This document shows positions 3,841 through 64,000 of a DNA stretch of 64,000 bases, one piece after another. This stretch comes from an uncultured Dehalococcoidia bacterium. Lineage in GTDB: Bacteria > Chloroflexota > Dehalococcoidia > Lucifugimonadales > UBA3495. The position numbers and the translations under genes are program-made. Under the pieces are notes generated by a model. The model had not been told where the DNA came from, searched no databases, and saw only the letters and a program-made list of their open reading frames with translations. The stretch lies in contig OX638345.1 of assembly GCA_951813535.1 (NCBI GenBank), positions 3,402,608 through 3,466,607 on the forward strand, written 5' to 3'. Within the stretch, counting starts at the first letter, position 1, and each line of letters starts with the position of its first letter.

Positions 3841-3843
3841 TAA

Positions 3844-5552
3844 GCCCGAATCCACCGAAGGGATCCAATGGTGCGGGTCAAACGAGGCGTGAATGGTGCG
3901 GGGAAGAATGGGCCGGGCTTTGATCCGGACGGATTGGTGCTGGCGCTGGGTGTGTCGGCGGCGCGAAGGAGATTTTGGCAGTCGGCGTCGCTGGCGACGG
4001 TCGGGATCAGTCTGCGGATTGCAGCAGGAGACACGGGAGGACCTGCCGGATGCTGGCCTGCCGGAGGGTTAGGTAGTCAGGGACGGGTCAAACGCTGCGG
4101 GCGTGGTCAGTAAGGGAGTGGTAGGGCGCGCAATCGGGCGAGGGCCCGACTGAACTGGTTTTGCCAGGGCCAGCCCTGGGGGAGATGCAGGGTGAGGCGG
4201 CGGGCCGTGCGGGTGATGCGTCCGGCCAGGGAGAAGAAGCGTCGCCTGAGGGTCTTGGTAGTTGTCACCGGCTGGCCCAGGCCGATGCGTGCGGTCCAGC
4301 GAGCCAGGTTGTGGGCGATGACCTGCACTGCCAGCCAGGCGGCGTTGGCGGGGAAACGGCCCGATGGCAGATGGTTGAGACCCACCCCGTACTTGAGGTC
4401 GCGGATGGCGTTCTCAATCTCGGCGTGGCGACGGTGATCGGCCTCAAGATCCAGCGTCTCGCCGTCCCGGTCGGTGATGAAAGCGTGATAGCTGTAGTTG
4501 GCGAAAAGGGCCAACTGTGAGCCGGGCGTGGGTTTCACCCTTCGCACGATGAGCCGTACCGGTACAGCGTCGGGCTCGCTCCGGAAAGGAGTGTATTCAG
4601 CCTCAGCCACGTCGGCGGCGCCCTCCATCCAGTACGGGATGGGCATCCAGTCGGTCTCGGGAATAGCCTCAATAATGTTGCGCAGGGTCTGGTGCTGTCG
4701 GACGGTGATGGAGAAGCGGACCTTCATCTTCCGGCAGACGGCGACGATGCCGTGGGTGTAGAAGCCACTGTCGGCGCGCACGGTGAGTGGTCCCGTGGCT
4801 CCGGCATAGCGCACGCGGTTGACGGTTTCCCGCAGGAAGTGGGCGGCGCCCCGAGCCGTGTTGGCTCGTCCCTGGCGCAGCCGAGCCATCAGCACGTCGC
4901 CGGTGCCAGCGGCCACGGCCAACAGCGGGTGATAGCCCCGCTGACCGGTGTAGTTGTGGCGCTGTGCGCCCTCCTTGGCCAGCCAGTAGGTCTCGCAGAC
5001 TGTGGAGTCCAGGTCGATGGTCAGCGGATCATCACCCGGTCCGGCCCCAGCGGCCCAGGCTCGGGCCAGAAACTCACGGCCCACCCGATCCAACTGGCGC
5101 ACGTGGCCCCAACGGAAGCTGCGCAGGAACGTACCCAGCGTGGATGGCGCCTTCACAGTACAGCCCAGTACCCGCTCGGTTCCACCAGCGCGCAACCCGT
5201 CGGCATCGTCGATGCAGTCTCCACCAGCCAGCGCCGACGCCACCAGGGTCAGCAGCTTGTCTCCCGCATTAGCCCGACCCGGCGCATCTCCCAGGTCAAC
5301 ATGGCGGTCCACCAACTCGCCCAGTCCCAGATGATGGGCCAGCGTGACCGGCAGGATCAGCCCAGCATCAGCCACCAGGCGGTGGTCATCGAAGACGGCG
5401 CAGATGCGGTCGAGGCGCTCAGGTGGTAGCATCCGATGGGTGCTCCTTGTTCTCGGGTGGTTTTCGTTGTCAAAAACCATTATCCCCGAAGCCGGGAGCA
5501 CTTTCTTATCGCCTCACCCCGAGGCCACACTCATCCTTTCGGTGGATTTGGG
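3844..5552 (-). mobile_element. IS1380-family insertion sequence, copy A
   Basis: This is a 1,709-bp element with imperfect terminal inverted repeats of about 21 bp (GCCCGAATCCACCGAAGGGA at the left end, GCCCAAATCCACCGAAAGGA inverted at the right). A 4-bp direct repeat CTAA flanks it at 3840-3843 and 5553-5556. The exact ends are ambiguous by one base. One transposase gene fills most of it, with about 260 bp of non-coding DNA after the stop. Copy B at 41489-43197 is the same length, inverted and nearly identical, so both inserted recently. Confidence 0.92.
4107..5432 (-). CDS. IS1380-family transposase (copy A)
   Basis: This 441-residue DDE transposase is full length for the family. The acidic residues are visible as IDLDSTV (Asp142), VRADSGF (Asp221) and HAEIENAIRDLKYG (Glu338 or 340). 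The frame extends upstream to 5501, but MLPPERLDR at 5432 follows an AAGGAG in the leader (about 9 bases upstream) and is preferred. Compared with copy B it has Met for Thr in the DWxPIPYW motif and a few changes near the C-terminus, such as Asn-Ala for Asn-Gly in FPANxAW. No frameshift is seen, so it should be active. Confidence 0.93.
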   Translation of the reverse strand: MLPPERLDRICAVFDDHRLVADAGLILPVTLAHHLGLGELVDRHVDLGDAPGRANAGDKLLTLVASALAGGDCIDDADGLRAGGTERVLGCTVKAPSTLGTFLRSFRWGHVRQLDRVGREFLARAWAAGAGPGDDPLTIDLDSTVCETYWLAKEGAQRHNYTGQRGYHPLLAVAAGTGDVLMARLRQGRANTARGAAHFLRETVNRVRYAGATGPLTVRADSGFYTHGIVAVCRKMKVRFSITVRQHQTLRNIIEAIPETDWMPIPYWMEGAADVAEAEYTPFRSEPDAVPVRLIVRRVKPTPGSQLALFANYSYHAFITDRDGETLDLEADHRRHAEIENAIRDLKYGVGLNHLPSGRFPANAAWLAVQVIAHNLARWTARIGLGQPVTTTKTLRRRFFSLAGRITRTARRLTLHLPQGWPWQNQFSRALARLRALPLPY

Positions 5553-5556
5553 CTAA

Positions 5557-41415: not shown

Positions 41416-41488
41416 GGTCTGATCTCCTTGGTGTCAATTTTGACTGATAACTCGTGCCATTTCACCCGTCCGCAGAATGTTTCTCTTA

Positions 41489-43197
41489 GCCCAAATCCAC
41501 CGAAAGGATGAGTGTGGCCTCGGGGTGAGGCGATAAGAAAGTGCTCCCGGCTTCGGGGATAATGGTTTTTGACAACGAAAACCACCCGAGAACAAGGAGC
41601 ACCCATCGGATGCTACCACCTGAGCGCCTCGACCGCATCTGCGCCGTCTTCGATGACCACCGCCTGGTGGCTGATGCTGGGCTGATCCTGCCGGTCACGC
41701 TGGCCCATCATCTGGGACTGGGCGAGTTGGTGGACCGCCATGTTGACCTGGGAGATGCGCCGGGTCGGGCTAATGCGGGAGACAAGCTGCTGACCCTGGT
41801 GGCGTCGGCGCTGGCTGGTGGAGACTGCATCGACGATGCCGACGGGTTGCGCGCTGGTGGAACCGAGCGGGTACTGGGCTGTACTGTGAAGGCGCCATCC
41901 ACGCTGGGTACGTTCCTGCGCAGCTTCCGTTGGGGCCACGTGCGCCAGTTGGATCGGGTGGGCCGTGAGTTTCTGGCCCGAGCCTGGGCCGCTGGGGCCG
42001 GACCGGGTGATGATCCGCTGACCATCGACCTGGACTCCACAGTCTGCGAGACCTACTGGCTGGCCAAGGAGGGCGCACAGCGCCACAACTACACCGGTCA
42101 GCGGGGCTATCACCCGCTGTTGGCCGTGGCCGCTGGCACCGGCGACGTGCTGATGGCTCGGCTGCGCCAGGGACGAGCCAACACGGCTCGGGGCGCCGCC
42201 CACTTCCTGCGGGAAACCGTCAACCGCGTGCGCTATGCCGGAGCCACGGGACCACTCACCGTGCGCGCCGACAGTGGCTTCTACACCCACGGCATCGTCG
42301 CCGTCTGCCGGAAGATGAAGGTCCGCTTCTCCATCACCGTCCGCCAGCACCAGACCCTGCGCAACATCATTGAGGCCATACCCGAGACCGACTGGACGCC
42401 CATCCCGTACTGGATGGAGGGCGCCGCCGACGTGGCTGAGGCTGAATACACTCCTTTCCAGAGTGAGCCCGACGCCGTTCCGGTACGGCTCATCGTGCGA
42501 AGGGTGAAACCCACGCCTGGCTCACAGTTGGCCCTTTTCGCCAACTACAGCTATCACGCTTTCATCACCGACCGGGACGGCGAGACGCTGGATCTTGAGG
42601 CCGATCACCGTCGCCACGCCGAGATTGAGAACGCCATCCGCGACCTCAAGTACGGGGTGGGTCTCAACCATCTCCCCTCGGGACGCTTTCCCGCCAACGG
42701 TGCCTGGCTGGCCGTGCAGGTCATCGCCCATATCCTGGCTCGTTGGACAACGCGCATCGGTCTGGGCAAACCGGTAGCAACCACCAAGACCCTCCGGCGA
42801 CGCTTCTTCTCCCTGGCCGGACGCATCACCCGCACGGCCCGCCGCCTCACCCTGCATCTCCCCCAGGGCTGGCCCTGGCAAAACCAGTTCAGTCGGGCCC
42901 TCGCCCGATTGCGCGCCCTACCACTCCCTTACTGACCACGCCCGCAGCGTTTGACCCGTCCCTGACTACCTAACCCTCCGGCAGGCCAGCATCCGGCAGG
43001 TCCTCCCGTGTCTCCTGCTGCAATCCGCAGACTGATCCCGACCGTCGCCAGCGACGCCGACTGCCAAAATCTCCTTCGCGCCGCCGACACACCCAGCGCC
43101 AGCACCAATCCGTCCGGATCAAAGCCCGGCCCATTCTTCCCCGCACCATTCACGCCTCGTTTGACCCGCACCGCTGGATCCCTTCGGTGGATTCGGG
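41489..43197 (+). mobile_element. IS1380-family insertion sequence, copy B
   Basis: This 1,709-bp copy is in the opposite orientation to copy A and has the same terminal repeats. The flanking 4-bp duplication is CTTA (41485-41488 and 43198-43201). It landed in the tnpA leader of a Tn3 remnant. Confidence 0.92.
41610..42935 (+). CDS. IS1380-family transposase (copy B)
   Basis: The protein has 441 residues, nearly identical to copy A. Asp142, Asp221 and the HAEIENAIRDLKYG Glu are all present. Differences include DWTPIPYW, YTPFQSEPD and GLGKPVATTKT. ATG 41610 follows AAGGAG in the leader. The frame has no break, so both copies could be active and could act on each other's ends. Confidence 0.93.
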   Translation: MLPPERLDRICAVFDDHRLVADAGLILPVTLAHHLGLGELVDRHVDLGDAPGRANAGDKLLTLVASALAGGDCIDDADGLRAGGTERVLGCTVKAPSTLGTFLRSFRWGHVRQLDRVGREFLARAWAAGAGPGDDPLTIDLDSTVCETYWLAKEGAQRHNYTGQRGYHPLLAVAAGTGDVLMARLRQGRANTARGAAHFLRETVNRVRYAGATGPLTVRADSGFYTHGIVAVCRKMKVRFSITVRQHQTLRNIIEAIPETDWTPIPYWMEGAADVAEAEYTPFQSEPDAVPVRLIVRRVKPTPGSQLALFANYSYHAFITDRDGETLDLEADHRRHAEIENAIRDLKYGVGLNHLPSGRFPANGAWLAVQVIAHILARWTTRIGLGKPVATTKTLRRRFFSLAGRITRTARRLTLHLPQGWPWQNQFSRALARLRALPLPY

Positions 43198-43250
43198 CTT
43201 ACGGACAGCGCCGCGCCTGCCGGGATGAACGGATAACGAAGGGATGGAAC

Positions 43251-48341: not shown

Positions 48342-49533
48342 GTGCCGCTCCAAGCAACTTCCAGCCGAAACTTGTACCTGTTCTCACCGAGGCAGGGTGA
48401 CCTTTTCATACCAGACCAAAACGCCGCGCTCCTGAAGGACTTCCACGCGTGCGATGAGACATTCTCTTTGGAGACAGTAGTAGATGGGAACGAGGGGTAC
48501 GGACTGTTCATGCGGTTCCCGTATGGGGACTCAGGAGTCCGGACTCGCCTGCTTGACGAATTTGGCGCGGTGACCCAATCGAACAATGTTGATTGGCTGC
48601 GCATCCGCAGAACTGATTACGCCGTGGTGCGCACGGTGACGCTGTCCCGCGACAGCGTGCTGTCGATCGCCAGCGATTCGCCCGACAACGTCCGTCATAG
48701 GTGGCGCGATGTGCTCGGGCGCATGTTCGAGCGCGCCAACGATGGTTCAATCGCCACCCTGGGCATTCGTGTGCTTCTGAAGCCGGCCCGCCCGGGGTGG
48801 CAAGCAAGGTTCCAGAATCACGCCCCCTCCGACGCCAAGGATGCCGCAGCGCTTCGCGTCGCCCGACAGTGGGCCGCAAAGGCAAGTGGGCTCGCTTTTC
48901 AGGCTGAGCTCCAACTGGTTGCAACCTGCAAAGATGTTGGGGAGCGGAAGCGCCGATCAGCCGCCGCCGTGGATGAACTGGCGAAATTGGTGGTCGAGCT
49001 CGCCGGCGGAGAGAAAGTGTGGACACTTCGGGCCCGGAGGCAATCGGTCGGACAGCGTCTCGCCCGCGACCGAAACAACCGAATGCAGAGCACATTCGAC
49101 CCCTGGCCGCCCCTGGACTTTCTATCCGCAGACCGTCAGTTGCGCCATGTGCTGAGTCCCGAAGAGGCTGCACCGCTGTGGCTAGCAGAGGCCTCGCCCC
49201 CGGTGCCGGTGGCCGTCGATTCGGTGCTTTCCGCCCGACGCGAAACGGATAAGGAGACCGGGCTAGCGCAGCTCGACCGGCTGCCACCGCTCGAGGAAGT
49301 GATCGCCAAACCTAGGGAGATAGCGCTCGATGAAATGCATGAGGCAACGGGCATCAGCGGGCCAGGAGTCGGGCAGGCCGTGGCGGCACAGTCTCATAGG
49401 GACGTCGGCGCTGAAGGTCGGGGTGCAGCGCATAGCTCCAGGCCGCCGGGATTACCGGTTCGTCGAATGCCCGATCGGAAGACCATGCGGCGTGGTAGTG
49501 GGTCCACGCGCCGCAGAGGTTCATCTCGAATGA
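48342..49533 (+). pseudogene. N-terminal part of a conjugation-type ATPase-like protein, probably frameshifted
   Basis: GTG 48342 has CGGGAGGTGCCAC just upstream. The product starts SSRNLYLFSPRQGDLFIPD, continues TDYAVVRTVTLSRDSVLSIA and reaches LDFLSADRQLRHVLSPEEAA, then PLW. This pattern is known from the region ahead of the motor domain in integrative-element VirD4/HerA-like ATPases. The frame stays open into the next gene (to 51077), but residues after about 49350 look shifted. The other frame reads YRFVECPIGRPCGVVVGPRA and ends at a TGA (49531-49533) overlapping the next ATG. An indel near 49340-49400 is the best explanation. No ATPase core follows. Confidence 0.5.
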
Positions 49534-51077
49534 GGGATGAATCCGAGCGCGCCAGCCCAGCGAGGATTCGGGATCTCGGCCTGACCGCGATCGACATCGA
49601 GATTTTCGGCCGGTTGGGGGACATGCCATTGGCCAGCAGGCAGGACTTGGCGTACGCCGCTGGTCGTGGGATCGCCACGGTTTATAAATCGATCAACCGC
49701 TTCAGGGAGTTGCAGTTGGTGGCAAACGAGCGCGTGTACATCAACGGAAACGACGAGGAGCGGTTTTGGATACCAGAGGACCAATGGGACCTGATCATGG
49801 GCGATCTACAGCAGCGCCACACCCAAAATCTGGTGAAGCGGCTCTGGTTGAACCCGGAGAGCTTGGCTGCGGTATACAGTCTGACGGGGATCCTGACCCT
49901 GGATGGGTCCGGCCGCGAACTGTGCGAGCTGAGTTGGCTGTGGCGGCGGCCGTTCGATGCGGTCGCTCAATTCTCAGACGGGTGGGTGGCCTTTGTGTGG
50001 GTCGGCGTTTGGCAGGACCAGGAGCGGCTTGACCGGCGTCTCCAGGAATGCTGGAACGAGTTGGGCCGCTGGAGCGGACGCGGGGAACGCCGGTGGCCCG
50101 GACGCATTTTCTTCCTGGTTCCCAATGCATGGGTGTGCGAACGCGTTTGGCGGGCCGTTGTGCGCCGGAACTGGGAGGCATCCTGTGCCACGTTGACTCT
50201 GGACAACCAGGAACTGAGCGGTGACCTGGGTCTGGAAGACAGCGTAGGGACCATACCCCCGGCAATCCGCGAAGAACCGCCATCCTTGCGAGCCGATGTA
50301 CAACGCCTCATCGGTCTTCTGACCGATGACCCAGGCAGCCGAATGCGACGGCTCATGACCGTGGTGGAGATGAATCCAGGGATCTTGTCCTCTCATCTGG
50401 CTCGCATGACGGGAATCAGTGGATCCCTCACCAAGAGGGCCCTCGCCAGGTTGGAGGACAAGAAAATGGTCCGCCGGGTTGAGGACGGTGGCTTCGCCGT
50501 CAACGATTCGGAGCTCGCCATGGCTGCCCGCCGGGACCGCGTGTGGCTGGGCTTGCCCCTTCGCCGTCACGGCGATGCGAAGGTGCGGGCCTACTCAAAA
50601 CGCCGCCGAAAGCGGCTTGGCGATGCGACGCGCATTCTGAGCAAATTCCGTGCCTCGGGTTGCCCGATAGCGCCGGGATGGCTAGCCCAGGACGGGCGGT
50701 TCAAGCCGAATGGTGTCGTTTGGGTGGATCAGGGACCCTGCGGCGGAGGTTGGCATTACGTTCTTGACATCCGCCACGGCAAACGCGAGTCGACGGTGCG
50801 GGAGGCGTTGAAACGCGCCCTGTCCGACGCCCGGTCCGACCAATTCCCTATCCTCATCATATGCCGGGACGACATGGAGGAACTGGTCTGGAGTCTGGCA
50901 GTCGGATGGCCCGTGCTGACCGCCACGGCGACCCGAGTGAGGAGCCGCGACCTGATTGGCACGAAATGCCGAGTTTGGTCGGATTTCGGGGAACCCGCAA
51001 TTCTGATCAGCGACCAAGACCAAAAAGTTGAGAGGAGGAGGAACAATGCGGCAAACGATGAGCCGGTCGGAGATTGA
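49530..51077 (+). CDS. Winged-helix/replication-relaxation-like protein, paralogue 1
   Basis: The 515 residues from ATG 49530 overlap the previous stop as ATGA. A winged-helix start (LTAIDIEIFGRLGDMPLASR and TVYKSINRFRELQLV) is followed by GRIFFLVPNAWVCERVWRAV, a second HTH (NPGILSSHLARMTGISGSLT) and a C-terminal domain. In that last domain paralogue 2 has PDA...E-x-E...K; here the equivalents are PNG and LDI, so any PD-(D/E)xK-like activity is probably lost. Replication-relaxation proteins sit next to conjugation ATPases in integrative elements, which fits the gene before it. Confidence 0.6.
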   Translation: MRDESERASPARIRDLGLTAIDIEIFGRLGDMPLASRQDLAYAAGRGIATVYKSINRFRELQLVANERVYINGNDEERFWIPEDQWDLIMGDLQQRHTQNLVKRLWLNPESLAAVYSLTGILTLDGSGRELCELSWLWRRPFDAVAQFSDGWVAFVWVGVWQDQERLDRRLQECWNELGRWSGRGERRWPGRIFFLVPNAWVCERVWRAVVRRNWEASCATLTLDNQELSGDLGLEDSVGTIPPAIREEPPSLRADVQRLIGLLTDDPGSRMRRLMTVVEMNPGILSSHLARMTGISGSLTKRALARLEDKKMVRRVEDGGFAVNDSELAMAARRDRVWLGLPLRRHGDAKVRAYSKRRRKRLGDATRILSKFRASGCPIAPGWLAQDGRFKPNGVVWVDQGPCGGGWHYVLDIRHGKRESTVREALKRALSDARSDQFPILIICRDDMEELVWSLAVGWPVLTATATRVRSRDLIGTKCRVWSDFGEPAILISDQDQKVERRRNNAANDEPVGD

Positions 51078-52383
51078 GGAACTATTCTCCGAAGATAGTG
51101 GCGTCCGCTCGGCAGCGGCGCGGAAATTGGGAGTCAGAGATGTCGATCTGATGGAAAGCGAGGACTACCTCGCCGGGGTGGCCGGACGGCTTGCATCTGC
51201 CGATGGAGAGGCGGCGCTGCCTGCGCTACACCGGTTGCTGGGCCACCCAGACGGGCTGGTACGGGCCAATGCGGCATGCTCGATAGCTGTGCTGGAACCC
51301 GATCAGGGCGTTCCGATACTGGAAATGTTGCTCTTCGAGAACGACCGAGAGGTGCGTCGCCGGGTATTGGAGACCCTGTGCCGGATACGGCCGCCGGGAG
51401 CAGGCCGGTTGCTGTCCCGCATCCTGTTGACGCTGTACCAGGCGAAGTTCTCGATAGATCCCTTCGACGACTGGACCCGTGACCTGCGTCGGCGAATGGT
51501 CGTCGCTCTCGGCATTGAGAGGGAGTCATACGCGGTCAACAGCCTGCGGCAAGCGTTACGTGAAGGTGATCCCCAGGTTCGGGCCAGCGCGGCATGGGCG
51601 CTGGGCCAAATCGGGGACCCGGTGGCCCTGCCCGACCTGGTTGACGCCCTGGATGACCGGGACGGGACAGTGCGCCAGCGGGCGGTGGAAGCCCTGGGGG
51701 AGTTGCCGGATCGCAGTGCATGCGACGCATTGCTGCGCAGGCTCGATGACCCTGAACCCAAGGTGGCGGCCGCGGTGGCGAGATGCCTGGGTTCGTTCAG
51801 GGAGCCAAGGGTGGCGCCGGAGTTGCTCCGGATCATCGCAGGGGATTCTGACCGAGTGGCCCGAGCAGCTTTCCGCGCATTGCGAATGTTAGGGCACGGA
51901 ATATCCGTACCGGAGCTCACCGACAAGATCGCTTCGCCCAACGTCGACGTCCAACGGAGGGCAAATGCGGCCGACCTGCTGGGTTTGACGGGCGTCGGTG
52001 AGGCGTTGCCAGCGCTCCTGACCGCCCTCGGACACCGGGAGAGTCTGGTGAGCGTCGCAGCGGCCCGGGCGCTGGGCCGCCTGGGAGACCACCGCGCCGC
52101 GCCGTATCTGCGCGATGTCCTGGAAGACGATGACCAACCCACGGCGGTTCTCCAAGCCGTCTTGGGAGCCCTGGGGGAACTGGGCGACTCCATGGGGTTA
52201 TATGCCGTCCGGCTCGCATCGGAATCGCCGGATCAAAACCTCGCCAACACGGCTTACAGGACTATGGTCCGTTTGGGCTACGCTAAGGTGGTGCCTGAAA
52301 AGCGGGCGGAGTTCCTGAACGCTGATCGTACCCGAGCGCCCCGCCTGCTGATGCGCGCAGGACGGTTCGACGAGAGGCTCTAG
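51046..52383 (+). CDS. HEAT-repeat protein
   Basis: GAGAGGAGGAGGAACA precedes ATG 51046, which lies 32 bp inside the preceding gene. The 445 residues are almost entirely PBS-type HEAT repeats: DPQVRASAAWALGQIGDPVA, DRDGTVRQRAVEALGELPDR, DPEPKVAAAVARCLGSFREP and DHRAAPYLRDVLEDDDQPTA, with about ten units in all. Such scaffolds bind proteins or nucleic acids. Tight overlap with two paralogous DNA-binding-type genes suggests a complex. Confidence 0.85.
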   Translation: MRQTMSRSEIEELFSEDSGVRSAAARKLGVRDVDLMESEDYLAGVAGRLASADGEAALPALHRLLGHPDGLVRANAACSIAVLEPDQGVPILEMLLFENDREVRRRVLETLCRIRPPGAGRLLSRILLTLYQAKFSIDPFDDWTRDLRRRMVVALGIERESYAVNSLRQALREGDPQVRASAAWALGQIGDPVALPDLVDALDDRDGTVRQRAVEALGELPDRSACDALLRRLDDPEPKVAAAVARCLGSFREPRVAPELLRIIAGDSDRVARAAFRALRMLGHGISVPELTDKIASPNVDVQRRANAADLLGLTGVGEALPALLTALGHRESLVSVAAARALGRLGDHRAAPYLRDVLEDDDQPTAVLQAVLGALGELGDSMGLYAVRLASESPDQNLANTAYRTMVRLGYAKVVPEKRAEFLNADRTRAPRLLMRAGRFDERL

Positions 52384-52416
52384 TGGGGCTGAATGAACGC
52401 ATCCAAGGAGGTGGCC

Positions 52417-53910
52417 ATGGATGATAAACCAAAAAAGAGTGTCCGAAAGACTCGATGTCTGACGGCGCAGGAGCGGACCATCGAAGATCGGCTTGAACGG
52501 TTTCCTCTGGCCAGCGGGCAAAACCTCGATCAGTTCTACCGGGAAGACGTGATCGCGAGGGACCGAACTCTGGCGGTGCTGAAATCGGACGGGTTGGTGG
52601 GCGGGATGGATGCGGGCCTTACCCATCGCCGACAACCCAGGTATTGGACCATTGATCGAAGCCGTGGACGCGACTATGAAAATCCGGTACCCAAGCATCC
52701 CACCCTGATCCACGCCCTGCTGACGCGCCTTGCACTTGTCGAATCCACGCATTCGATCATTGAAGCGGCGCTGCAAGCGAATCCCCGGCGCGAGGTCAGG
52801 GATTTGCAGTGGCGCTTCGAACCCGCCATCGATGCGACACTCACCTTCAACGACGGTTGGATAGCGTTCAAATGGTCCGGCATTTGGCAAGGCCTGGAAT
52901 CGCTGGTCAAGCAAATGCGGGGCTTGTTTGACAATCTTCGAGCCTGGAACCGACCGGGTCGGCTGCCACTCCCCGGGAAGTTGTGCTTCGTAGTGCCGGA
53001 CCTCTGGCAGGCTGAACTGGTGCGACGAGCCGCGAAGATGACCGCTTTCGAGGACATGTGCCTGATCCACGTGGCCGGTGATGGTTTGATCGATGGCGAC
53101 TACGACCTTTCGGGGAGCCATGGCCGGCCGCCCCGGCCCGACATGGGGCGCTGGCAACGCTCGCCGGATCGTCTGGATTCCCTGATGTCCCAGCTCATGG
53201 AAAACGAAAACGCCCGGGACCTGTTGCGTTTCATGACAACCGTCGAGCAGTGGCCCGGAGCGTTTCGACCAACGCTGCGAAATTTGACCAGATTGAATGG
53301 GAAATCGGCGGCGGCGGCGGAAGAGTTGCTGCTCAGTCTCGACCTGATTTGGATAACCTCCGCAGGGGGCTTTGGAGCGGGCCGGGACTGGCTCTCAATC
53401 GCGGCCCGCCGGGATCTGGTCTGGTCAGGGAAGCCCGGCCGTTTGTTCGGCCGCGAAAAGGTTGAGAAACTCCATGCGGGGCGCAACGCCAAACACGAGA
53501 AGGGACTTTCCGATCTCGCCGGATGGTTTGCTGCCCAGGGATGTCCCGTCGCAAATGGCTGGCGCTTTCGGGACGTTATGGGGAAGGATGGTCAACTGGC
53601 TCCCGACGCCATGATCTACGTGAGATCCAGCCCCTTTGGACCCACGTGGTGCTACGTGGAATATGAACTGAGCGCCACCAGCCGCGGCCGGGTGGGTAGC
53701 AAATGCCATGGCTACCGTTCGGGATCGAGGAGCGACGACTTTCCGGTTCTGGTAGTCTGCAGACGGAAAGCAGTCCGCCACTTCATTGATCAAGCCACCA
53801 GTCGCATGCTGATCGCGCCGGTGGAAGACATGCGTAAGGCGAATGTCGTAGGTGATTCAGGCACCGTGTGGCTCCACGATGGACGCCCCGTGCGCCGCTT
53901 TGGAAAATGA
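52417..53910 (+). CDS. Winged-helix/replication-relaxation-like protein, paralogue 2 with nuclease-like C-terminus
   Basis: CCAAGGAGGTGGCC supports ATG 52417; an upstream ATG at 52393 is weaker. The 497 residues align with the gene at 49530: KLCFVVPDLWQAELVRRAAK matches its FLVPNAW region, and FMTTVEQWPGAFRPTLRNLT is common to both. The C-terminus keeps QLAPDAMIYV, WCYVEYELSATSRGRVGSKC and DDFPVLVVC, an Asp...Glu-x-Glu...Lys order like relaxation-protein or PD-(D/E)xK domains. This paralogue may therefore be catalytic and the other regulatory. Confidence 0.65.
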   Translation: MDDKPKKSVRKTRCLTAQERTIEDRLERFPLASGQNLDQFYREDVIARDRTLAVLKSDGLVGGMDAGLTHRRQPRYWTIDRSRGRDYENPVPKHPTLIHALLTRLALVESTHSIIEAALQANPRREVRDLQWRFEPAIDATLTFNDGWIAFKWSGIWQGLESLVKQMRGLFDNLRAWNRPGRLPLPGKLCFVVPDLWQAELVRRAAKMTAFEDMCLIHVAGDGLIDGDYDLSGSHGRPPRPDMGRWQRSPDRLDSLMSQLMENENARDLLRFMTTVEQWPGAFRPTLRNLTRLNGKSAAAAEELLLSLDLIWITSAGGFGAGRDWLSIAARRDLVWSGKPGRLFGREKVEKLHAGRNAKHEKGLSDLAGWFAAQGCPVANGWRFRDVMGKDGQLAPDAMIYVRSSPFGPTWCYVEYELSATSRGRVGSKCHGYRSGSRSDDFPVLVVCRRKAVRHFIDQATSRMLIAPVEDMRKANVVGDSGTVWLHDGRPVRRFGK

Positions 53911-54175: not shown

Positions 54176-55801
54176 TCAAGCCACCCCGCGTGTTTCACCA
54201 CGCGCGACCGCCTGAACCGGATTGGGTCGGCGTCTCCGCTTTCCCAGCCGGTGCTGCGCTGCAAGCGCCGGTCTCAGCTGCCCCGAGATCGCGCCCCAGT
54301 ACGTCCACACGTGCTTCACCCGCGTCCTGACGGGTACGGTGAAGGCGACGTGGACGCCATCGCCGACGGGATAAGCCCATCGACGTGGGATGCGCTCCGA
54401 ACAGCCGAGCAAACGTCGGGCCAGCACCAAAGCCGCTGCCTGGTGGACGCTGAGCCCGTAACGTTCCATGAACTTCACCCGGCCGATCACTGAACTGAAC
54501 GCCGGGTTGACCTGATGTACTTCCACTCCTTCGCGGTAGCCACGGGACAGGAAGTACGCTTTGATCTTCCCGTAGCTGAAACTCGACAGCATCCGGCTGT
54601 ATTTGCGAGACTCACCTTCGAGAGCAGCCTTCTTCCGGCAGAAGTCCAGCTTCTCGATGACGATGGGCTTGCCAACCTCATGGGCGTGCGCCACTACTGA
54701 GGCCACGGCATCGCCGATGATAGCCTCAGCCTGATGCTGGGACTTCCCGTAGGTCACCAGCGGCACGCTGAACGCGTTGACGTAGTTGCCGCTGGCATCA
54801 GTCTCACAGACCGCCAGGTGGTCGGCGTTCAGGTCCACGCCGATGGCGCCACGCCGTTGGTCCGTTACCACCGGCACTTCCATCATGTCGGTGGTGGCGA
54901 ACACCCGCCAGCCTTTCCGGTCCCGCTTGAACCGGTAGCTGATGGCCTGACCCAGTTCGGTCTCGCGCACTGCCTGCTCACCTTGCTCACGCCGGTGCCG
55001 AGCGTACGCGGCGTTGCTGCCCAACGCGGCCAGCATCTGCTCGTGACCGTGGTTGAAGCGCACGCCCTCGATGGTTAGGTACTTGCCATGCTGTACCGCC
55101 AGGCAGTCCGGCATCCTGAGCCGCAGGGTCAGCGTCCCGTCATCAGCCACGGTGGCCACGCAGAGCTGACACCCCGCCGTCTCGTCGCGGCTGCCCAGCA
55201 CGAAGAATTCGTCGCTGCGCGCCTCACGCCAGTCTTTGAGCCATTCCTCATGGCTGGTGTAGCCGTTGTCCTCCAGGTGCTGCTGCTTCCGCCACAGCCG
55301 CTTGGAACCGAAGCACAGCCGCACCCGCTCCTCCGCAACGTCGGCTTCTAACACCGCCACCCTATGCCGCAGGTTGGCCAGCCGCCTCCGTTTCTGGTGG
55401 ACCTGTTCGAGCCGGCCGCGTTCGGCGGCATCGGCGATCTGCCGCTCTGCCCGAGCCAGCCGCCGGCCCAGGCTGTCCAGCTGCAGATTCTGCTGCTCCC
55501 TCACCGACGCCACCTTCCCTTCCAGCGACACCCGCACCCCGTTGAACATCCGCGCCGGTATCCCGTACCGTTGCAGGTACTCGCTCTTCAACGCCGTCGC
55601 CGACCGGCCTGCCGCCACCTCAGCGAACAGTTGCCGCTCCACCCTGCCGTACAGCGCGGCGTAGGCCGATAACGCCGCGTCGCCGGCCTGACGGTCAACA
55701 CCGGAGTACTCGCGCACCCGCGTCTGATAGGTCGCGGTCAGCCGCCTCCCACCGGAGCTACTTTGAGCAGATGACCGGACGTTCCTTTTGCAGAGTGCCA
55801 T
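54176..55801 (-). CDS. TnpB-like (OrfB) protein with non-canonical third RuvC motif
   Basis: The 541 residues have a helical N-terminal half with a coiled-coil (about 100-165), then a RuvC-like core: AIGVDLNADHLAVCETDASG (Asp323) and PIVIEKLDF (Glu383). Where TnpB has a zinc finger and a Asp-x-Asn motif, this protein reads VNPAFSSVIGRVKFMERYGL and SVHQAAALVLARR, with His453 in the Asp position and no CxxC. It is either a family with a different third residue or a nuclease-dead TnpB relative. No tnpA is nearby. Active TnpB is an RNA-guided DNA nuclease that retains IS605 elements; inactive relatives can repress genes. Confidence 0.8.
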   Translation of the reverse strand: MALCKRNVRSSAQSSSGGRRLTATYQTRVREYSGVDRQAGDAALSAYAALYGRVERQLFAEVAAGRSATALKSEYLQRYGIPARMFNGVRVSLEGKVASVREQQNLQLDSLGRRLARAERQIADAAERGRLEQVHQKRRRLANLRHRVAVLEADVAEERVRLCFGSKRLWRKQQHLEDNGYTSHEEWLKDWREARSDEFFVLGSRDETAGCQLCVATVADDGTLTLRLRMPDCLAVQHGKYLTIEGVRFNHGHEQMLAALGSNAAYARHRREQGEQAVRETELGQAISYRFKRDRKGWRVFATTDMMEVPVVTDQRRGAIGVDLNADHLAVCETDASGNYVNAFSVPLVTYGKSQHQAEAIIGDAVASVVAHAHEVGKPIVIEKLDFCRKKAALEGESRKYSRMLSSFSYGKIKAYFLSRGYREGVEVHQVNPAFSSVIGRVKFMERYGLSVHQAAALVLARRLLGCSERIPRRWAYPVGDGVHVAFTVPVRTRVKHVWTYWGAISGQLRPALAAQHRLGKRRRRPNPVQAVARGETRGVA

Positions 55802-55969: not shown

Positions 55970-56329
55970 CTACGTCGCGTCCACCAGCGGCCCCATCTCG
56001 CTGAGCAGGGCCTGGACATCGTCCAGGTTTTCGGCTATTTCGTCGGGTGGCAAGACGTTTTCGTAGAAGTTCTCGTGGAGGGCGCTGGCCGAGTGGAACA
56101 GGCGGCGGATATCGCCATCGCCGGTTTCGGACCTGAGTTGGCTTGCCGCGACTAGGTGGGGACGGAGTCGGCTGCGCTCCCAGCCACGCTGTTGGGCGCG
56201 GGCCTTGAGCGTCTGGGCAGCAGCGCTTCGGCCCTGTTCAGACGCCTGTGCCAAGTCTCCGTCGGCTAGTTCGCGCCTGGCCTGTGCCATGAATCTTTCG
56301 CTGGCTTGTCGGTATTTCTGTGCGGTCAA
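55970..56329 (-). CDS. PaREP1/HEPN-like small helical protein
   Basis: The 119 residues read as a helical bundle: YRQASERFMAQARRELADGD, LAQASEQGRSAAAQTLKARA and LFHSASALHENFYENVLPPD. This matches the PaREP1-type HEPN relatives that appear in multiple copies in some genomes. The catalytic RX4-6H motif is not obvious, so binding rather than cleavage is likely. The start is TTG 56329; no strong ribosome-binding site is present. Confidence 0.65.
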   Translation of the reverse strand: MTAQKYRQASERFMAQARRELADGDLAQASEQGRSAAAQTLKARAQQRGWERSRLRPHLVAASQLRSETGDGDIRRLFHSASALHENFYENVLPPDEIAENLDDVQALLSEMGPLVDAT

Positions 56330-59174: not shown

Positions 59175-59894
59175 CTACCGTCGGGTTACCGTGAGCAACG
59201 ACGCCTCGTCGCCGCGCACGGTGTGTCCGTTAAGATAGACGTGGACGTGGATGATCGCTGTCTCGACGCCGTTCATGGTCAGCTGGCCCGCTCCCAGGTC
59301 CACCGAGAGATCCTCGGGGGCCGGTGCGGTCTCATCGGAAGGCGACGGAACGCGGCTGAGCGCCCGCACGTCCTTCTCGATGAACCTGGCATTGAGACCC
59401 GTCTGCCGTTTGTCCTCCGGCAGCTGCGCGATGATCCGCTCCACCAGGTCGTCGGCCCCCCAGAGGATCTTCACTGCCCGCAGTTGCTTCGCGGCCATGA
59501 TCTCCTGATTGGCCTCCATGTCGACGAACACCGCCACCGGGACGATGAAGCAGCCGAAATCGAAGTCGCGAGTAGCGGCATCCTTCACCGCCATGGCCGC
59601 CTGCCAGAGCTGTTCCAGCGGGTCGGACACGAAGACGGCGTCGCCGTCGCCGTTGTGACGGTGCCATTTGCCGTTTTCCACCGAGTACCTGCCGGTGAGA
59701 AAGCTGACGACGAACCGGCCCTCCTCCTCCACGCACACCGCGCAGTCGGGAGCGAGTTTGTCGCCGGCGACCCTGGGCCGGAACAGCGCCACTCCCTGGC
59801 GGTCACTGGCCTCGAACCGGCTCAGGGCATCCCGTTCCGCGCCACTCAGGGGGCGCCGGTCGTTGTCGTTGGCTGCGTTGTTGATTACCTTCAT
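59175..59894 (-). CDS. NERD-like nuclease-fold protein
   Basis: AGGAGATGAAAAT precedes ATG 59894. In the 239 residues, a GRFVVSFLTGRYSVENGKWH segment and the helix QLWQAAMAVKDAATRDFDFG, then CFIVPVAVFVDMEANQEIMA, match NERD-type domains, which share a fold with PD-(D/E)xK nucleases. The segment order parallels the NERD protein at 62047. The catalytic Asp-x-Glu-x-Lys pattern is not plain, so activity is unsure. It is separated from the helicase by 68 bp that hold a terminator-like hairpin. Confidence 0.65.
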   Translation of the reverse strand: MKVINNAANDNDRRPLSGAERDALSRFEASDRQGVALFRPRVAGDKLAPDCAVCVEEEGRFVVSFLTGRYSVENGKWHRHNGDGDAVFVSDPLEQLWQAAMAVKDAATRDFDFGCFIVPVAVFVDMEANQEIMAAKQLRAVKILWGADDLVERIIAQLPEDKRQTGLNARFIEKDVRALSRVPSPSDETAPAPEDLSVDLGAGQLTMNGVETAIIHVHVYLNGHTVRGDEASLLTVTRR

Positions 59895-59949: not shown

Positions 59950-59974
59950 GCGGACCCGTGCGTTACGGGTCCGC
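59950..59974 (-). terminator. Intrinsic terminator-like hairpin at the helicase stop
   Basis: GCGGACCCGT and ACGGGTCCGC form ten perfect pairs around a 5-nt loop. On the bottom strand a TTATT tract follows. The helicase stop codon lies inside the stem. The T-tract is weak, so read-through into 59175-59894 is likely. Confidence 0.55.
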
Positions 59975-61918
59975 CCGCAGCGTTGGGTGTGCGGACTTTC
60001 GTCGTGTCCCGCGGCGTAGAACCGGCCGCTTCCGTCGTTGCGGGGGATCTCGGGCACGATGGGCGGAGCCGGGATGAATGATCATGGGGTCACCTCTCGC
60101 TGTTGGAATGACGCCGGCGCGTCGAAGTGCGCCGGTACGATCGATGCTCACGGCGCTCGCTCGCCCGGGGCCCGGGTTCATTCGGTTTCGGCCCATGTGG
60201 ACCACGACGCGCCTGGGCCGCAGTTCGGACAGTTGACGTGGCGGCGATGGTTCCGGCGCGTTCGGTTTGCCCCTGTGCTCGCCGCCGTCGGGCGCAAACC
60301 GCTGTCGGGCCAGGGCATCCAGCCGTGCCCGTCTCATCTCCGCCCAATTCTCGGCCCGGTCCCAGATGACATCGAACCGGGCGCGGGGCCGGCAGCTGGC
60401 CGTGAGCGCCAGCAGGCGCCTGGCCCGAGAGAAAGCGACATAGTGCTGGCGCATTTGGTCGAAGGCGGCGATGCGGTTGGTGGGCTCGTGCGTGCGCTGC
60501 CGGGCGTGGGGCAAGAGCGCCCGTCCCACCGGATCCACCTCCCGGTTGTGGAAGTCCAGGGACCCGACCACCACCACATCCCACTCCAGCCCCTTGGACC
60601 GGTGGATGGTGGTTACCGTAACCTCGGGCCGTCGCCGTCGCCGTTCCGTTCGCGCCCGGGCACGGGGAATGCCGGCGGGAATGCCGCCCTCCTCCAGGCC
60701 GTCCAGGTAGCGGCCAACCACCTCCTCCCGGACGCTGTGCAACAGCAGCGCCGCCTGGGAGTAGTCGGAGATGACTCGGTTGCGCTTTAGAAACCACAGC
60801 AGACTGACCAGCTGGTCCACCTCGTCCACCGGGCCGTCGCCGTCGATCCGGATCACGGCCGGGTAGTCGTCAGTCTCCATGGACGCGGGAATGATCGCCT
60901 TGTCGTACCGGAACGACTGACCTCCCCGATCATGATCGGTCCAGTTGGCCGACCTCATCCAGTCGCTGAACACACCGACGATCGCCGGGTGGCTGCGGTG
61001 GTTTACGTCCAGCTCCGCCACGCGGCAATCGGGGTAACGGTCGGGGAACGTGAGCATGTTCTGAACGCGGGCGCCGCGGAACCGGTACAGGCTCTGGTCG
61101 TCGTCGCCCACCACGCACAGGTTGCCGTGCTGTTCGGAGAGCAGCCCCAGCAACTTTTCCTGGACGTGGCTGGTGTCCTGGTACTCGTCGCACATCAGGT
61201 GCCGGACGGCGCCGGAAACCTCGCCCGCGATCCGTTCATCCTGTTCCAGGAGCTCCACCGTCCACCGCTGCAGGTGGGCGAAGTCGGCCAGGCCCAGCTC
61301 CAGCAGCAACCCCTCGTATCGCCAGTAGGAGCGTCCCAGGGCGCTCTTGAACCGGCTGCCAGAGTGGATCAGGTCCCAGGGATCGATCAATTCATCGCAG
61401 ATCCGGTCGAAGTATTTGGCTGCGTTCCGCACCACCGCGCCCCGCCGCCGCCACCCGCGCCGGGCCAGACGCTCCCGGTCCGGTCCGAATATGTCGTCGA
61501 AGCGCTCATCCAACAACGCCCGTTGCTCGCGTTCGTTGAGCAGGCGGAGACCCGACCCCAACCCGGCCGGCCGCAGGTGGCTCCGCAGCAGGCGCCCGCA
61601 CAGCCCATGCAGCGTGGTCACCTGAACCCCAGAGTAATCGCCCGGGTAGCCCGCGGCAGCGGCGGCGGTTCGGAAGCGCTGACGCAGTTCCTCGGCCGCA
61701 GCCCGGCTGTAGGTGCAGAGCAGCAGCCCCGGCGGCTCGACCATCCCCAACAGCAGCAGGTTGATCGCCCGCAGGACGATGGCCAGGGTCTTGCCTGTCC
61801 CAGGTCCGGCGATGCCCAGCAGGGGTCCCTCCAGCCCCGAGATCAGTTCGAGCTGACCGCGGTCCAGCCGCCGGTGCAACTGCAGAATGGCGGGTGCGAT
61901 GTCCGGATTGTTTCTCAT
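59963..61918 (-). CDS. UvrD/PcrA-type helicase of a NERD cluster
   Basis: ACAAGGAGCACCATCGAC precedes ATG 61918. The 651 residues show SF1A motifs: GIAGPGTGKTLAIVLRAINL (P-loop), CTYSRAAAEELRQRF, MCDEYQDTSHVQEKLLGLL (Walker B), VVGDDDQSLYRFRGARVQNM, VNHRSHPAIVGVFS, TIHRSKGLEWDVVVVGSLDF and VAFSRARRLLALTAS. The last 90 residues are Arg/Pro-rich and may be poorly ordered or shifted. Lying between two NERD-domain genes, it probably works with them on DNA ends. Confidence 0.9.
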   Translation of the reverse strand: MRNNPDIAPAILQLHRRLDRGQLELISGLEGPLLGIAGPGTGKTLAIVLRAINLLLLGMVEPPGLLLCTYSRAAAEELRQRFRTAAAAAGYPGDYSGVQVTTLHGLCGRLLRSHLRPAGLGSGLRLLNEREQRALLDERFDDIFGPDRERLARRGWRRRGAVVRNAAKYFDRICDELIDPWDLIHSGSRFKSALGRSYWRYEGLLLELGLADFAHLQRWTVELLEQDERIAGEVSGAVRHLMCDEYQDTSHVQEKLLGLLSEQHGNLCVVGDDDQSLYRFRGARVQNMLTFPDRYPDCRVAELDVNHRSHPAIVGVFSDWMRSANWTDHDRGGQSFRYDKAIIPASMETDDYPAVIRIDGDGPVDEVDQLVSLLWFLKRNRVISDYSQAALLLHSVREEVVGRYLDGLEEGGIPAGIPRARARTERRRRRPEVTVTTIHRSKGLEWDVVVVGSLDFHNREVDPVGRALLPHARQRTHEPTNRIAAFDQMRQHYVAFSRARRLLALTASCRPRARFDVIWDRAENWAEMRRARLDALARQRFAPDGGEHRGKPNAPEPSPPRQLSELRPRRVVVHMGRNRMNPGPGRASAVSIDRTGALRRAGVIPTARGDPMIIHPGSAHRARDPPQRRKRPVLRRGTRRKSAHPTLRADP

Positions 61919-62046: not shown

Positions 62047-62763
62047 TTACCCTGCGGGCTTCGCGGCGCCGGACCGGATGGTGAGCACGTTTCTGCCGAA
62101 CACGGCCAGCCGCGTCTCGCCGGGGAAACCTGCCGCGGAGAGAGACACCGACCCATCAGGAGCTGGATTGATACGAGCCGCGTCGGTGACCACGCCCGGG
62201 TCGATCAGCTCGTCCGTTACCGCCCGTACCTCGTCGGCAATCCGGTCCCAGGACAGCCGGTCCGTAACGCTTCTGCGTTTCACGATGTTTTCCAGGTCAG
62301 CCTCCAGATTGGGCGTCCCCCACACCAGGTACACCCCCTTTCGCCCGGCCAGGCTCCCGATGGCCGCATTGGGCTCCATGTCCGGGAACACGAGCACGGG
62401 GATCACGAACGGGTTGTAGACCGCGCTCGTGCGATCTTTGATATCGTCGTGCAGATCTAACGTCGCGAGCTTGGTTTCGTCCAGTGGACAAGACTTGACC
62501 GGTCGATAACCCTCCTTGGTTTTCAGGCGCCACTCGGCGTCGACGAGCAGGTAATGGCCGCCTTTAACCTGCAGCGCGAACCGGCCCATGTTCTCGATCC
62601 AGACGGCGAAGTCGAGCTCAATGCGCTCGTAACCCTTTCGCCACTCGTAAAAGACGAAGCCCCGGCGGTCGCTGCCAGCCAGGGCTTCGTAAACTCGTCT
62701 CTCCGCACGCCGTTTGGGTCTATTTCGGCGGTCCGGCGGAAACTCTCTTGGGTAGATGTTCAT
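62047..62763 (-). CDS. NERD-domain (nuclease-related) protein
   Basis: GAAGGAGTGATTGGCAAC supports ATG 62763, so the longer frame to 62826 is rejected. The 238 residues open MNIYPREFPPDRRNRPKRRA and carry the NERD core: RRVYEALAGSDRRGFVFYEW, ERIELDFAVWIENMGRFALQ and VKGGHYLLVDAEW. The Asp in IELDF and Gln-x-Lys in LQVKGG are the expected metal-site residues, so cleavage activity is plausible. It heads the NERD-helicase-NERD cluster. Confidence 0.8.
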   Translation of the reverse strand: MNIYPREFPPDRRNRPKRRAERRVYEALAGSDRRGFVFYEWRKGYERIELDFAVWIENMGRFALQVKGGHYLLVDAEWRLKTKEGYRPVKSCPLDETKLATLDLHDDIKDRTSAVYNPFVIPVLVFPDMEPNAAIGSLAGRKGVYLVWGTPNLEADLENIVKRRSVTDRLSWDRIADEVRAVTDELIDPGVVTDAARINPAPDGSVSLSAAGFPGETRLAVFGRNVLTIRSGAAKPAG

Positions 62764-63479
62764 GTTGCCAATCACTCCTTCGACGGTTTGGGAAAAGCGA
62801 GCATCAGCGGTCCGCGCAGCGGGCACACTCTGCTACACCGTTGCCGCCGGAAGCGGATGCCCCAGGATGACATGCTGCTGCAGGACGGGAGCCACCGGGC
62901 CTGGGTGGGAGGACCGAGGAACCAAATTCGGCCAGTTGGTGGCGGTAGCCAACGCTGTGGTCCTGGCGACGACGCTGTAAGTTACCTCACGATGTTGGAG
63001 GTGCCAACCGATGGCCTGGTGCATCCCTTTGGCGCTGTACGGTCAAGGCCATGCTGTCTTCAAGCACAACTCCCGCAAGCCGGAGACGGGATCGGAAGCC
63101 ACCCACTTCATCCGGTAACTGCAGGAACCGGGGATCCGGCGGATCTTTTGCCGTTGACTACAGGCGCGGGCCCATTGGGAAACGTCGGGAAGGCCGGCGA
63201 GCAAGTACAGTCTTCACCGGCTCGCGCGTCCACCTTCCCCCCGTTTTATCCCATTCATTGACGCCAATGGCCGCAACCCCATGGTTGCTGTGATCCAAGG
63301 CAGACACAACTCGGTTCTGTTGGGAGATATGCAGGATGTCGCTGTTCTGGGGTTGAGACCACGATTTGCCCACCCGCTCAAGGGACAAAAGCGAACCCTA
63401 GGCCTTCACGCCGGCCATCCGATCGCGTTTGTTGATACCGATGATTACGCGTTTGGCTTTGTGGAGCGCGGTTGAATGC
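62764..63479. other. Gene-poor stretch between the NERD cluster and the attachment end
   Basis: About 700 bp have only overlapping short frames on both strands, Arg/Pro/Gly-rich, without ribosome-binding sites. No repeat or RNA feature was recognised. Confidence 0.45.
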
Positions 63480-63718: not shown

Positions 63719-64000
63719 TCATTCGGGCGCTTGCATGGCATCTGCGAAGGCGTCCGCGGCTTCCTGCTGCCATCCCTCGAGGGCGTGGGCGTAAGTTTCC
63801 ATGGTGACTTTGGGGCTTGAATGACCCAGCCGCTCGGCAGCTACGGCGTAGTTTGGGCGCACATCCAGCAACACCGAAGCGTGGAAATGCCGCAGGCTAC
63901 GGGACGTAACACTCGGGTGCCCCGCCCGTTTCGCCAATCGTTTTACGGCGTGCATCACCGTGTTGGGGTGCGCCCATCCGGTCCAATCGCTCCTGGGAAA
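63719..64000 (-). CDS. Tyrosine integrase, C-terminal part (5' end outside window)
   Basis: The bottom strand is open from the window end to the stop at 63719. Visible features are WAHPNTVMHAVKRLAKRAGH, the HxxR box (SLRHFHASVLL; His then Arg just before) and the terminal LGHSSPKVTMETYAHALEGW with the His/Trp position and nucleophilic Tyr. This is the catalytic end of a phage-type integrase. Its place next to a tRNA fragment and direct repeats fits an integration module. The start lies beyond base 64000. Confidence 0.85.
   Translation of the reverse strand, partial: FPRSDWTGWAHPNTVMHAVKRLAKRAGHPSVTSRSLRHFHASVLLDVRPNYAVAAERLGHSSPKVTMETYAHALEGWQQEAADAFADAMQAPE

Follow-up and report, generated by a model that had tools for sequence, protein, structure and literature searches.

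The stretch of DNA analyzed here (the window: 64,000 bases, positions 3402608–3466607 in the genome of an uncultured Dehalococcoidia bacterium, a single contig of 4,377,943 bases that is 99.8% complete and 4.94% contaminated) contains at 48342–53910 a block of genes that, on balance, probably represents a derivative of a MOBC-type conjugation module. By its sequence, this locus would have lost self-transfer and kept DNA processing, and may serve as a non-conjugative relaxosome derivative for nicking and unwinding. The block includes two relaxase-like paralogs, one of which retains and one of which has lost the signature residues, a HEAT-repeat gene between them, and a stretch that resembles the N-terminal part of VirD4-type coupling proteins. 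The block as outlined in a preliminary description of this DNA is real, and the interpretation given there was largely right; however, that description was wrong about translational coupling at 49530 and missed the link to a NERD-UvrD-NERD operon 5 kb downstream. The three open reading frames (ORFs) that it had named agree with the ORF coordinates, with 515 amino acids for the upstream paralog, 445 residues for the HEAT protein, and 505 amino acids for the downstream paralog, and so does the 32-bp overlap between the ATG of the HEAT gene at 51046 and the stop of the upstream paralog. The components of the block are listed below.

48342–49370, + strand: VirD4 N-terminal-domain-like stretch, without transmembrane segment or ATPase, sharing an open frame with the next gene (blastp, VirD4 profile, codon usage).
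49371–49533, + strand: junction with poor coding signal and an out-of-frame ATGA at 49530, where relatives show a 4-bp VirD4/relaxase overlap.
49530–51077, + strand: MOBC/Replic_Relax-like paralog, predicted to be catalytically dead (N-L-I-A at the signature columns; alignment, tree).
51046–52383, + strand: HEAT-repeat protein (PF13646, E = 9.6e-53).
52393–53910, + strand: MOBC/Replic_Relax-like protein with an intact D-E-E-K signature (alignment, structure model).

For the relaxase-like proteins, 77 rows were collected, which are not independent and include near-identical copies; 73 of these are readable at the four signature columns, and four are truncated or unaligned there. The residues D-E-E-K or D-E-E-R are kept in 69 of the 73 readable rows. 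The downstream paralog of the window has all four (D405, E423, E425, and K437), and the upstream paralog reads N-L-I-A. The "active/inactive pair" of the preliminary description is thus seen against the readable rows as residue loss upstream and retention downstream, and the arrangement recurs in two other genomes. The other deviating rows are from three of the surveyed loci, which are designated here by L numbers and were picked by relaxase or NERD matches: L031:8516-10162 (N, gap, gap, V), L026:1768-3723 (D-E-M-R), and L153 (E-E-E-R). Three of the four deviating rows (those of the window, L031, and L026) belong to a full-length tandem in which the other member is intact. Further tandems, in L083, L084, L027, L085, L091, and L149, are broken or unreadable. 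For phylogenetic inference, 28 of the 77 rows (truncated sequences and near-duplicates) were dropped by hand, leaving 49. In the resulting tree, the two window paralogs, which have 27–28% identity (E = 1.6e-43 in a search of their own genome), are sisters with support of 100/98. The dead partners of L026 and L031 form one group (99/94) and the live partners another, in a different part of the tree (94/49). Because the window pair groups together while the dead and live partners in L026 and L031 are placed apart, the live/dead arrangement probably arose at least twice, apparently independently.

Both paralogs appear to be MOBC-type (Replic_Relax, PF13814-related) relaxase-like proteins, an assignment made through relatives. 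Among 10 homologs scanned, four pass the PF13814 cut-off of 25.3 bits, namely those of L026 (44.7 bits, E = 2.2e-11), L032 (43.5 bits, E = 5.0e-11), L034 (42.0 bits, E = 1.4e-10), and L033 (30.0 bits, E = 6.7e-7); that of L024 lies below it (E = 0.0073). The term "relaxation-like" in the preliminary description is supported by these relatives, the window proteins themselves missing the cut-off. The genome has a third relaxase-like copy about 85 kb from the window pair (L004) and, at 3955 kb, part of a fourth. The sole named relative found using the relaxase-like proteins is L073, in a metagenome-assembled genome of a SAR202 cluster bacterium (Chloroflexota), from which we infer that the host of the window is SAR202-type.

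Each paralog has winged helices and two PD-(D/E)xK-like domains. The N-terminal winged helix is indicated by a match of positions 16–89 of the family profile A2 to the MarR-type structure 3bj6 (E = 2.5e-5) and by alignment of residues 16–89 in the model of the downstream paralog to MarR 3bpv (Z 10.4, root-mean-square deviation [rmsd] 3.2 over 73 residues). A second winged helix lies in the middle of the protein (MarR_2, E = 5.6e-7, residues 277–320 of the upstream paralog). In the downstream paralog both halves are modeled, at low confidence, as a winged helix followed by an α-β-β-β-α-β pattern. When Foldseek matches are re-ranked by VIA-align 2, the model of the C-terminal half appears to align mainly with PD-(D/E)xK nucleases, including AF1548 (Z 8.5, rmsd 3.2 over 109) and Cdn1 (Z 8.0, rmsd 3.4 over 120), both of which we take to be members of this fold, as well as Nt.BspD6I (Z 7.4, rmsd 6.2 over 138) and HindIII (Z 7.0, rmsd 4.3 over 136). 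Since Z values of about 7–8 are common among the best matches, the fold call depends on how consistent these matches are and on the residues. Without re-ranking, neither model has a PDB match at E ≤ 0.001 in Foldseek, whose top rows for the C-terminal half are methyltransferases. A viral library gave five matches at E ≤ 0.001, the best being Bacillus phage G gp146; searches of viral contigs, plasmids, and phages gave nothing, and PHROGs gave weak helix-turn-helix (HTH)-type matches only.

No transfer machine was found in the genome that carries the window. The VirD4-family profile A3, which has matches in 12 of 50 genomes of the bacterial family, has none here at E ≤ 1e-5. For VirB4-type proteins (PF19044), the best score in this genome is 16.5 bits against a cut-off of 25.8, with controls positive in eight of 14 genomes. 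These two negative searches bear out the earlier suggestion that the same gene set occurs without a transfer operon, and the four components of a complete conjugative element (VirB4, VirD4, relaxase, and integrase) are not found together in this genome. Among the relatives, L085 and L089 have a VirB4-type gene, a VirD4 gene, and a relaxase-like gene in a row, together with a recombinase, which suggests that the same relaxase-like family also serves conjugation-type clusters. A third set of relaxase-like genes is located with serine recombinases and an HTH gene. Accordingly, the homologs do not always lie inside complete conjugative elements: some relatives do and others do not. Relaxase-like matches number up to 25 in the genome G035 and up to 19 in G032 (e.g., L090, L091, L032, and L082), many of them accompanied by serine recombinase and HTH genes; these are apparently a family of proliferating integrative elements.

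Upstream of the dead copy, the first ORF contains about 170 residues similar to the N-terminal portion of VirD4 proteins, as judged against 14 members from the same bacterial family. In a blastp search, the part at about 48429–48818 matches the N-terminus of a 1342-amino-acid VirD4-type protein in L073 (23% over 145 amino acids, E = 4e-4), which has type IV coupling protein (T4CP) domains and is encoded 17 bp upstream of a relaxase-like gene. A profile of the 14 VirD4 proteins, compared with three frames, matches only the frame that holds the stretch (21.6 bits, E = 7.8e-9). In this match, profile positions 178–260 are skipped and nothing is aligned beyond position 293 of 876. The skipped part would be transmembrane, by our reading of a hydrophobic stretch, and the match stops before the ATPase. 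The "conjugation-ATPase-like N-terminus" of the preliminary description therefore corresponds to a weak but specific similarity to VirD4-type proteins in their N-terminal half, without the transmembrane and ATPase parts.

The proposed coupling through the ATGA at 49530 is rejected, because the TGA at 49531–49533 sits in another frame and the upstream ORF has no stop; from 48126 or 48342 to 51077 there is one stop-free frame of 983 codons, which reaches into the dead relaxase. Codon usage is coding-like at about 48400–49370, weak near 48850–48910, and dips between about 49390 and 49530. Among 13 VirD4-relaxase pairs of the same bacterial family, 11 have an exact 4-bp overlap (ATGA in seven, GTGA in three, and TTGA in one) and two have none, the genes in surveyed loci being longest-ORF calls with uncertain start codons and hence uncertain GTGA and TTGA overlaps. 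The ATGA of the window looks like a fossil of such a VirD4/relaxase junction. By chance, a run-on of some 50 codons in frame would be unremarkable, whereas an intact 515-codon ORF with the architecture of its paralog is remarkable. In L077, a second relaxase/UvrD locus, a coupling-protein ATPase domain has lost its Walker residues, with GKST changed to GRHG in motif A and DE to DG in motif B; this locus retains the half opposite to the remnant in the window.

Helicase genes of the UvrD type accompany relaxase-like genes in two ways. One group, UvrD_b, has seven copies in the 50 family genomes (382–937 bits), and the next best UvrD proteins, at 279 bits or less, are apparently housekeeping copies. 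A relaxase-like gene lies no more than 7 kb from each of the seven UvrD_b copies and no more than 1.4 kb from six of them, which has a probability of about 1.7e-12 under random placement, a model that makes P values too generous when genes cluster in genomic islands; the underlying alignment A7 was made from six relaxase-adjacent genes, and the search covered whole genomes. Across 393 genomes of the class, UvrD_b is found at E ≤ 1e-95 only in the genome of the window, and relaxase-like genes are found at E ≤ 1e-30 in 37. The other group, UvrD_a, is represented in the window itself, in an operon 5–9 kb from the relaxase pair. The features downstream of the pair are as follows.

54176–55801, − strand: TnpB-like gene between both operons (NCBIfam guided_TnpB, E = 5.4e-11, below its cut-off).
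59175–59894, − strand: NERD-like protein with QVK changed to SFL, called dead (motif alignment).
59963–61918, − strand: UvrD-type superfamily 1 helicase, group a (PF00580, E = 2.8e-54).
62047–62826, − strand: NERD-like protein with the E, D, and QxK motif intact, called live (motif alignment).
63719–64000, − strand: tyrosine integrase, C-terminal part only, with the rest beyond the window edge (PF00589, E = 2e-7).

The order NERD-UvrD-NERD is also present in L026 and L190, and readable live/dead NERD neighbors are found in five loci (the window, L026, L190, L129, and L192). In L031 the second NERD-like gene is unreadable at the motif, and of 13 other NERD-like proteins compared, 10 are live and three are changed. 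The window proteins have no direct match to PF08378, and solved structures give a best E value of 0.15 for the family; a profile that includes the window proteins finds L200 (E = 2.9e-12) and L201 (E = 2.0e-8), which carry PF08378 (E = 7.2e-11 and 3.8e-12, respectively). Among 17 NERD loci, as we grouped them at E ≤ 1e-20, six have a relaxase-like gene within 10 kb, compared with 0.44 expected (P ~2e-6, from the same chance model and with hand-entered, approximate counts of relaxase loci). In each of the three surveyed loci where a live/dead relaxase pair can be read, NERD-UvrD_a genes are nearby. A second UvrD gene, broken, is found with one NERD-like gene in the 10 kb of chromosome that follow the window (L095:3647-6309).

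If the preferred reading is correct, the live and dead relaxase-like proteins may assemble as a heteromer at a specific site in DNA, where the dead copy would supply DNA binding or placement and thereby limit cutting to one strand. Scaffolding of this complex may come from the HEAT protein, perhaps together with the coupling-protein-like domain; a UvrD-type helicase would then unwind DNA from the nick, and the NERD pair may trim or recruit. The likeliest use would be nicking and unwinding of mobile-element DNA in the cell, either of its own element (mobilization in trans, excision, or replication) or of an invader (defense). A more specific version, in which a relaxosome has turned into an intracellular DNA-processing or defense machine whose relaxase heteromer, motorless coupling domain, and HEAT scaffold mark and nick mobile-element DNA and whose UvrD and live/dead NERD pair unwind and degrade it, seems rather unlikely as a whole. 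If it were true, the system would follow a convergent design rule by which live nucleases are paired with dead ones. If the set has been domesticated, a SAR202-type lineage would have put parts of conjugation to new use in DNA processing.

The relaxase pair and the NERD-UvrD-NERD operon may simply be unrelated neighbors that share an island, which is compatible with a relaxosome derivative and is, of the alternatives, the one to which we give the most weight, doubtful as it remains. In the window the two operons have opposite orientations with 5 kb of other genes between them, and for 11 of the 17 NERD loci any relaxase-like gene is more than 10 kb away. On the other hand, the pair and the NERD-UvrD genes are divergent neighbors in L026 and L031, the association extends to every surveyed locus with a readable live/dead relaxase pair, and co-location exceeds random placement, inflated as this excess is by island clustering. 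Alternatively, the locus may belong to a mobilizable element with a relaxase and an accessory DNA-binding paralog that borrows a transfer pore, in which UvrD unwinds the DNA and the tyrosine integrase excises the element. This integrase gene (63719–64846, − strand, completed in L095) lies about 0.9 kb beyond the NERD operon, L073 joins an intact VirD4, a relaxase-like gene, and UvrD_b, and related relaxase-like genes occur with serine recombinase and HTH genes or in VirB4-VirD4-relaxase clusters. Moreover, MOBC mobilizable elements with VirD4 and a serine integrase are on record in a passage of Coluzzi (2017; PMC5357655). However, neither a tRNA nor a direct repeat was found as an attachment site for the integrase in the stretches of this genome examined, and mobilization needs no motorless coupling-protein-like domain. 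The window, L004, L024, and L029 also have no match at cut-off to coupling-protein or serine recombinase models (over 20–26 kb; tyrosine recombinases were not systematically surveyed). We regard a mobilizable element as an improbable explanation.

Plain decay, in which a conjugative module is dying and has left two pseudogenes, the coupling-protein stretch and the upstream relaxase-like copy, is less probable still, and we give it little credence. The region is rich in insertion sequences, the coupling-protein stretch has no stop or ATPase of its own and ends in a gap that looks non-coding, and some relatives are visibly broken, such as L027, which is in three pieces. These signs of decay contrast with the intact ORFs of the dead copy, the HEAT protein, and the live copy, and with the recurrence of intact dead copies among relaxase-like (L026 and L031) and NERD-like (five loci) genes. 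In addition, the losses in the coupling protein include an internal transmembrane stretch and not merely an end. Several observations weigh against a relaxosome derivative as preferred here. The window's relaxase-like proteins have no PF13814 match at E ≤ 0.1, their structure models are of low confidence (mean predicted local distance difference test scores of 56.6 and 61.9), and the dead pair of L026 and L031 is joined by long branches, about which the tree program warned. In a single-protein search of 60 genomes, the coupling-protein-like stretch was found confidently only in the window (best of the 59 others, E = 0.012). A HEAT gene beside related relaxase-like genes occurs only in the window, with one more, in L086, at a distance of about 7 kb from such a gene, and HEAT as a conserved partner was rejected on this account, certain as the repeats themselves are in 51046–52383. 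No origin of transfer (oriT) was found; the direct repeats detected near the genes form only families of two copies, which were rejected as oriT signatures. Finally, no UvrD_b copy adjoins the window pair, the relaxase and NERD-UvrD operons of the window are convergent with TnpB-like and other genes in the 5 kb between them, and NERD-UvrD-NERD without a relaxase-like gene in L190 suggests that the two may be independent neighbors.

The surroundings of these genes include several other features. The TnpB-like gene is probably an insertion outside the system; this TnpB/Cas12f-like gene has an 81%-identical piece at L004:1-735. The gene at 55970–56329 (− strand) belongs to the PaREP1/PaREP8 family (PF05942, E = 3.3e-16), which is named after archaea and here is bacterial. 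Two inverted 1.7-kb copies with 98% identity (3841–5556 and 41486–43201) are separated by about 36 kb, and copies with 83–86% identity are present elsewhere in the genome. No sigma-70-type promoters were found (shuffles average 1.2). Among the surveyed loci, from which L079 was excluded in gene-neighborhood comparisons because it lies on the same contig as L073, a common protein is encoded near relaxase-like genes in L024 (1362–2483), L031 (425–1306), and L083 (4666–5580), and its profile also finds L192; this protein may be ParB-like. In L030 (4580–9763), a 1727-amino-acid double helicase with DpdF-like and GajB-like parts is encoded beside a relaxase-like gene and an HsdM gene.

Among known systems, the MOBC relaxases (TraX of pAD1 and MobC of CloDF13) share with the window proteins a winged helix and a PD-(D/E)xK-like domain with D..ExE..K/R, and the genes for relatives of the window proteins immediately follow a VirD4 gene. 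In PMC5357655, PF13814 appears as the domain of MOBC relaxases, and PMC12857230 describes these relaxases as kin of PD-(D/E)XK restriction enzymes, noting a winged helix in TraX and the failure to see a covalent intermediate. The window differs from these in having two genes, one of them dead, with a HEAT gene between them, a second half of winged helix and nuclease fold per protein, no transfer genes found in the genome, and proteins below the PF13814 threshold. How MOBC relaxases pass on DNA without a visible covalent link is described as open in the same source (PMC12857230), and a MOBC-like lineage that has its own dedicated UvrD and pairs live with dead proteins may offer a concrete biochemical handle. 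Compared with VirD4-type coupling proteins, the stretch in the window lacks a transmembrane segment and the Walker A/B ATPase, and its frame is open into the relaxase-like gene. Like HelP of ICEBs1, a helper of the relaxase that a mobile element encodes itself (part of PMC12857230), the set in question includes a helicase-related gene; however, it is a UvrD-type helicase gene by a MOBC-like, not a MOBT, relaxase gene.

The NERD/UvrD pairs, including Gabija GajB-type and reverse-transcriptase-associated helicases, resemble the window in that its UvrD (RTasHel, E = 2e-40; GajB, E = 6.8e-39; PADLOC) lies beside NERD-like nucleases. They differ in that live and degraded NERD-like genes flank the helicase of the window, where no reverse transcriptase was identified. 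No GajA model is among the PADLOC rows listed for the window proteins scanned, which cover only part of the neighboring ORFs. Known defense systems were rejected as an identification, as PADLOC gave generic helicase, HEAT, and HTH matches and a weak RTasNERD-Hel match of the live NERD-like protein (E = 0.015). Nt.BspD6I with its small subunit R.BspD6I2 is a heterodimeric PD-(D/E)xK enzyme whose subunits divide the strands. Both subunits are among the structural matches, and the analogy is at the fold level only, with no sequence relation shown. In open-licence PMC literature, nothing was found on relaxases with an inactive paralog or on SAR202 defense, and nothing useful on NERD/UvrD defense. 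The families are known, and the combination of a MOBC-like live/dead pair with a motorless coupling domain, UvrD, and a NERD pair was not met in that literature, which is weak evidence of absence. New are the dedicated UvrD type by relaxase-like genes, the NERD(live)-UvrD-NERD(dead) operon, and the second, apparently independent live/dead relaxase pair in two other genomes.

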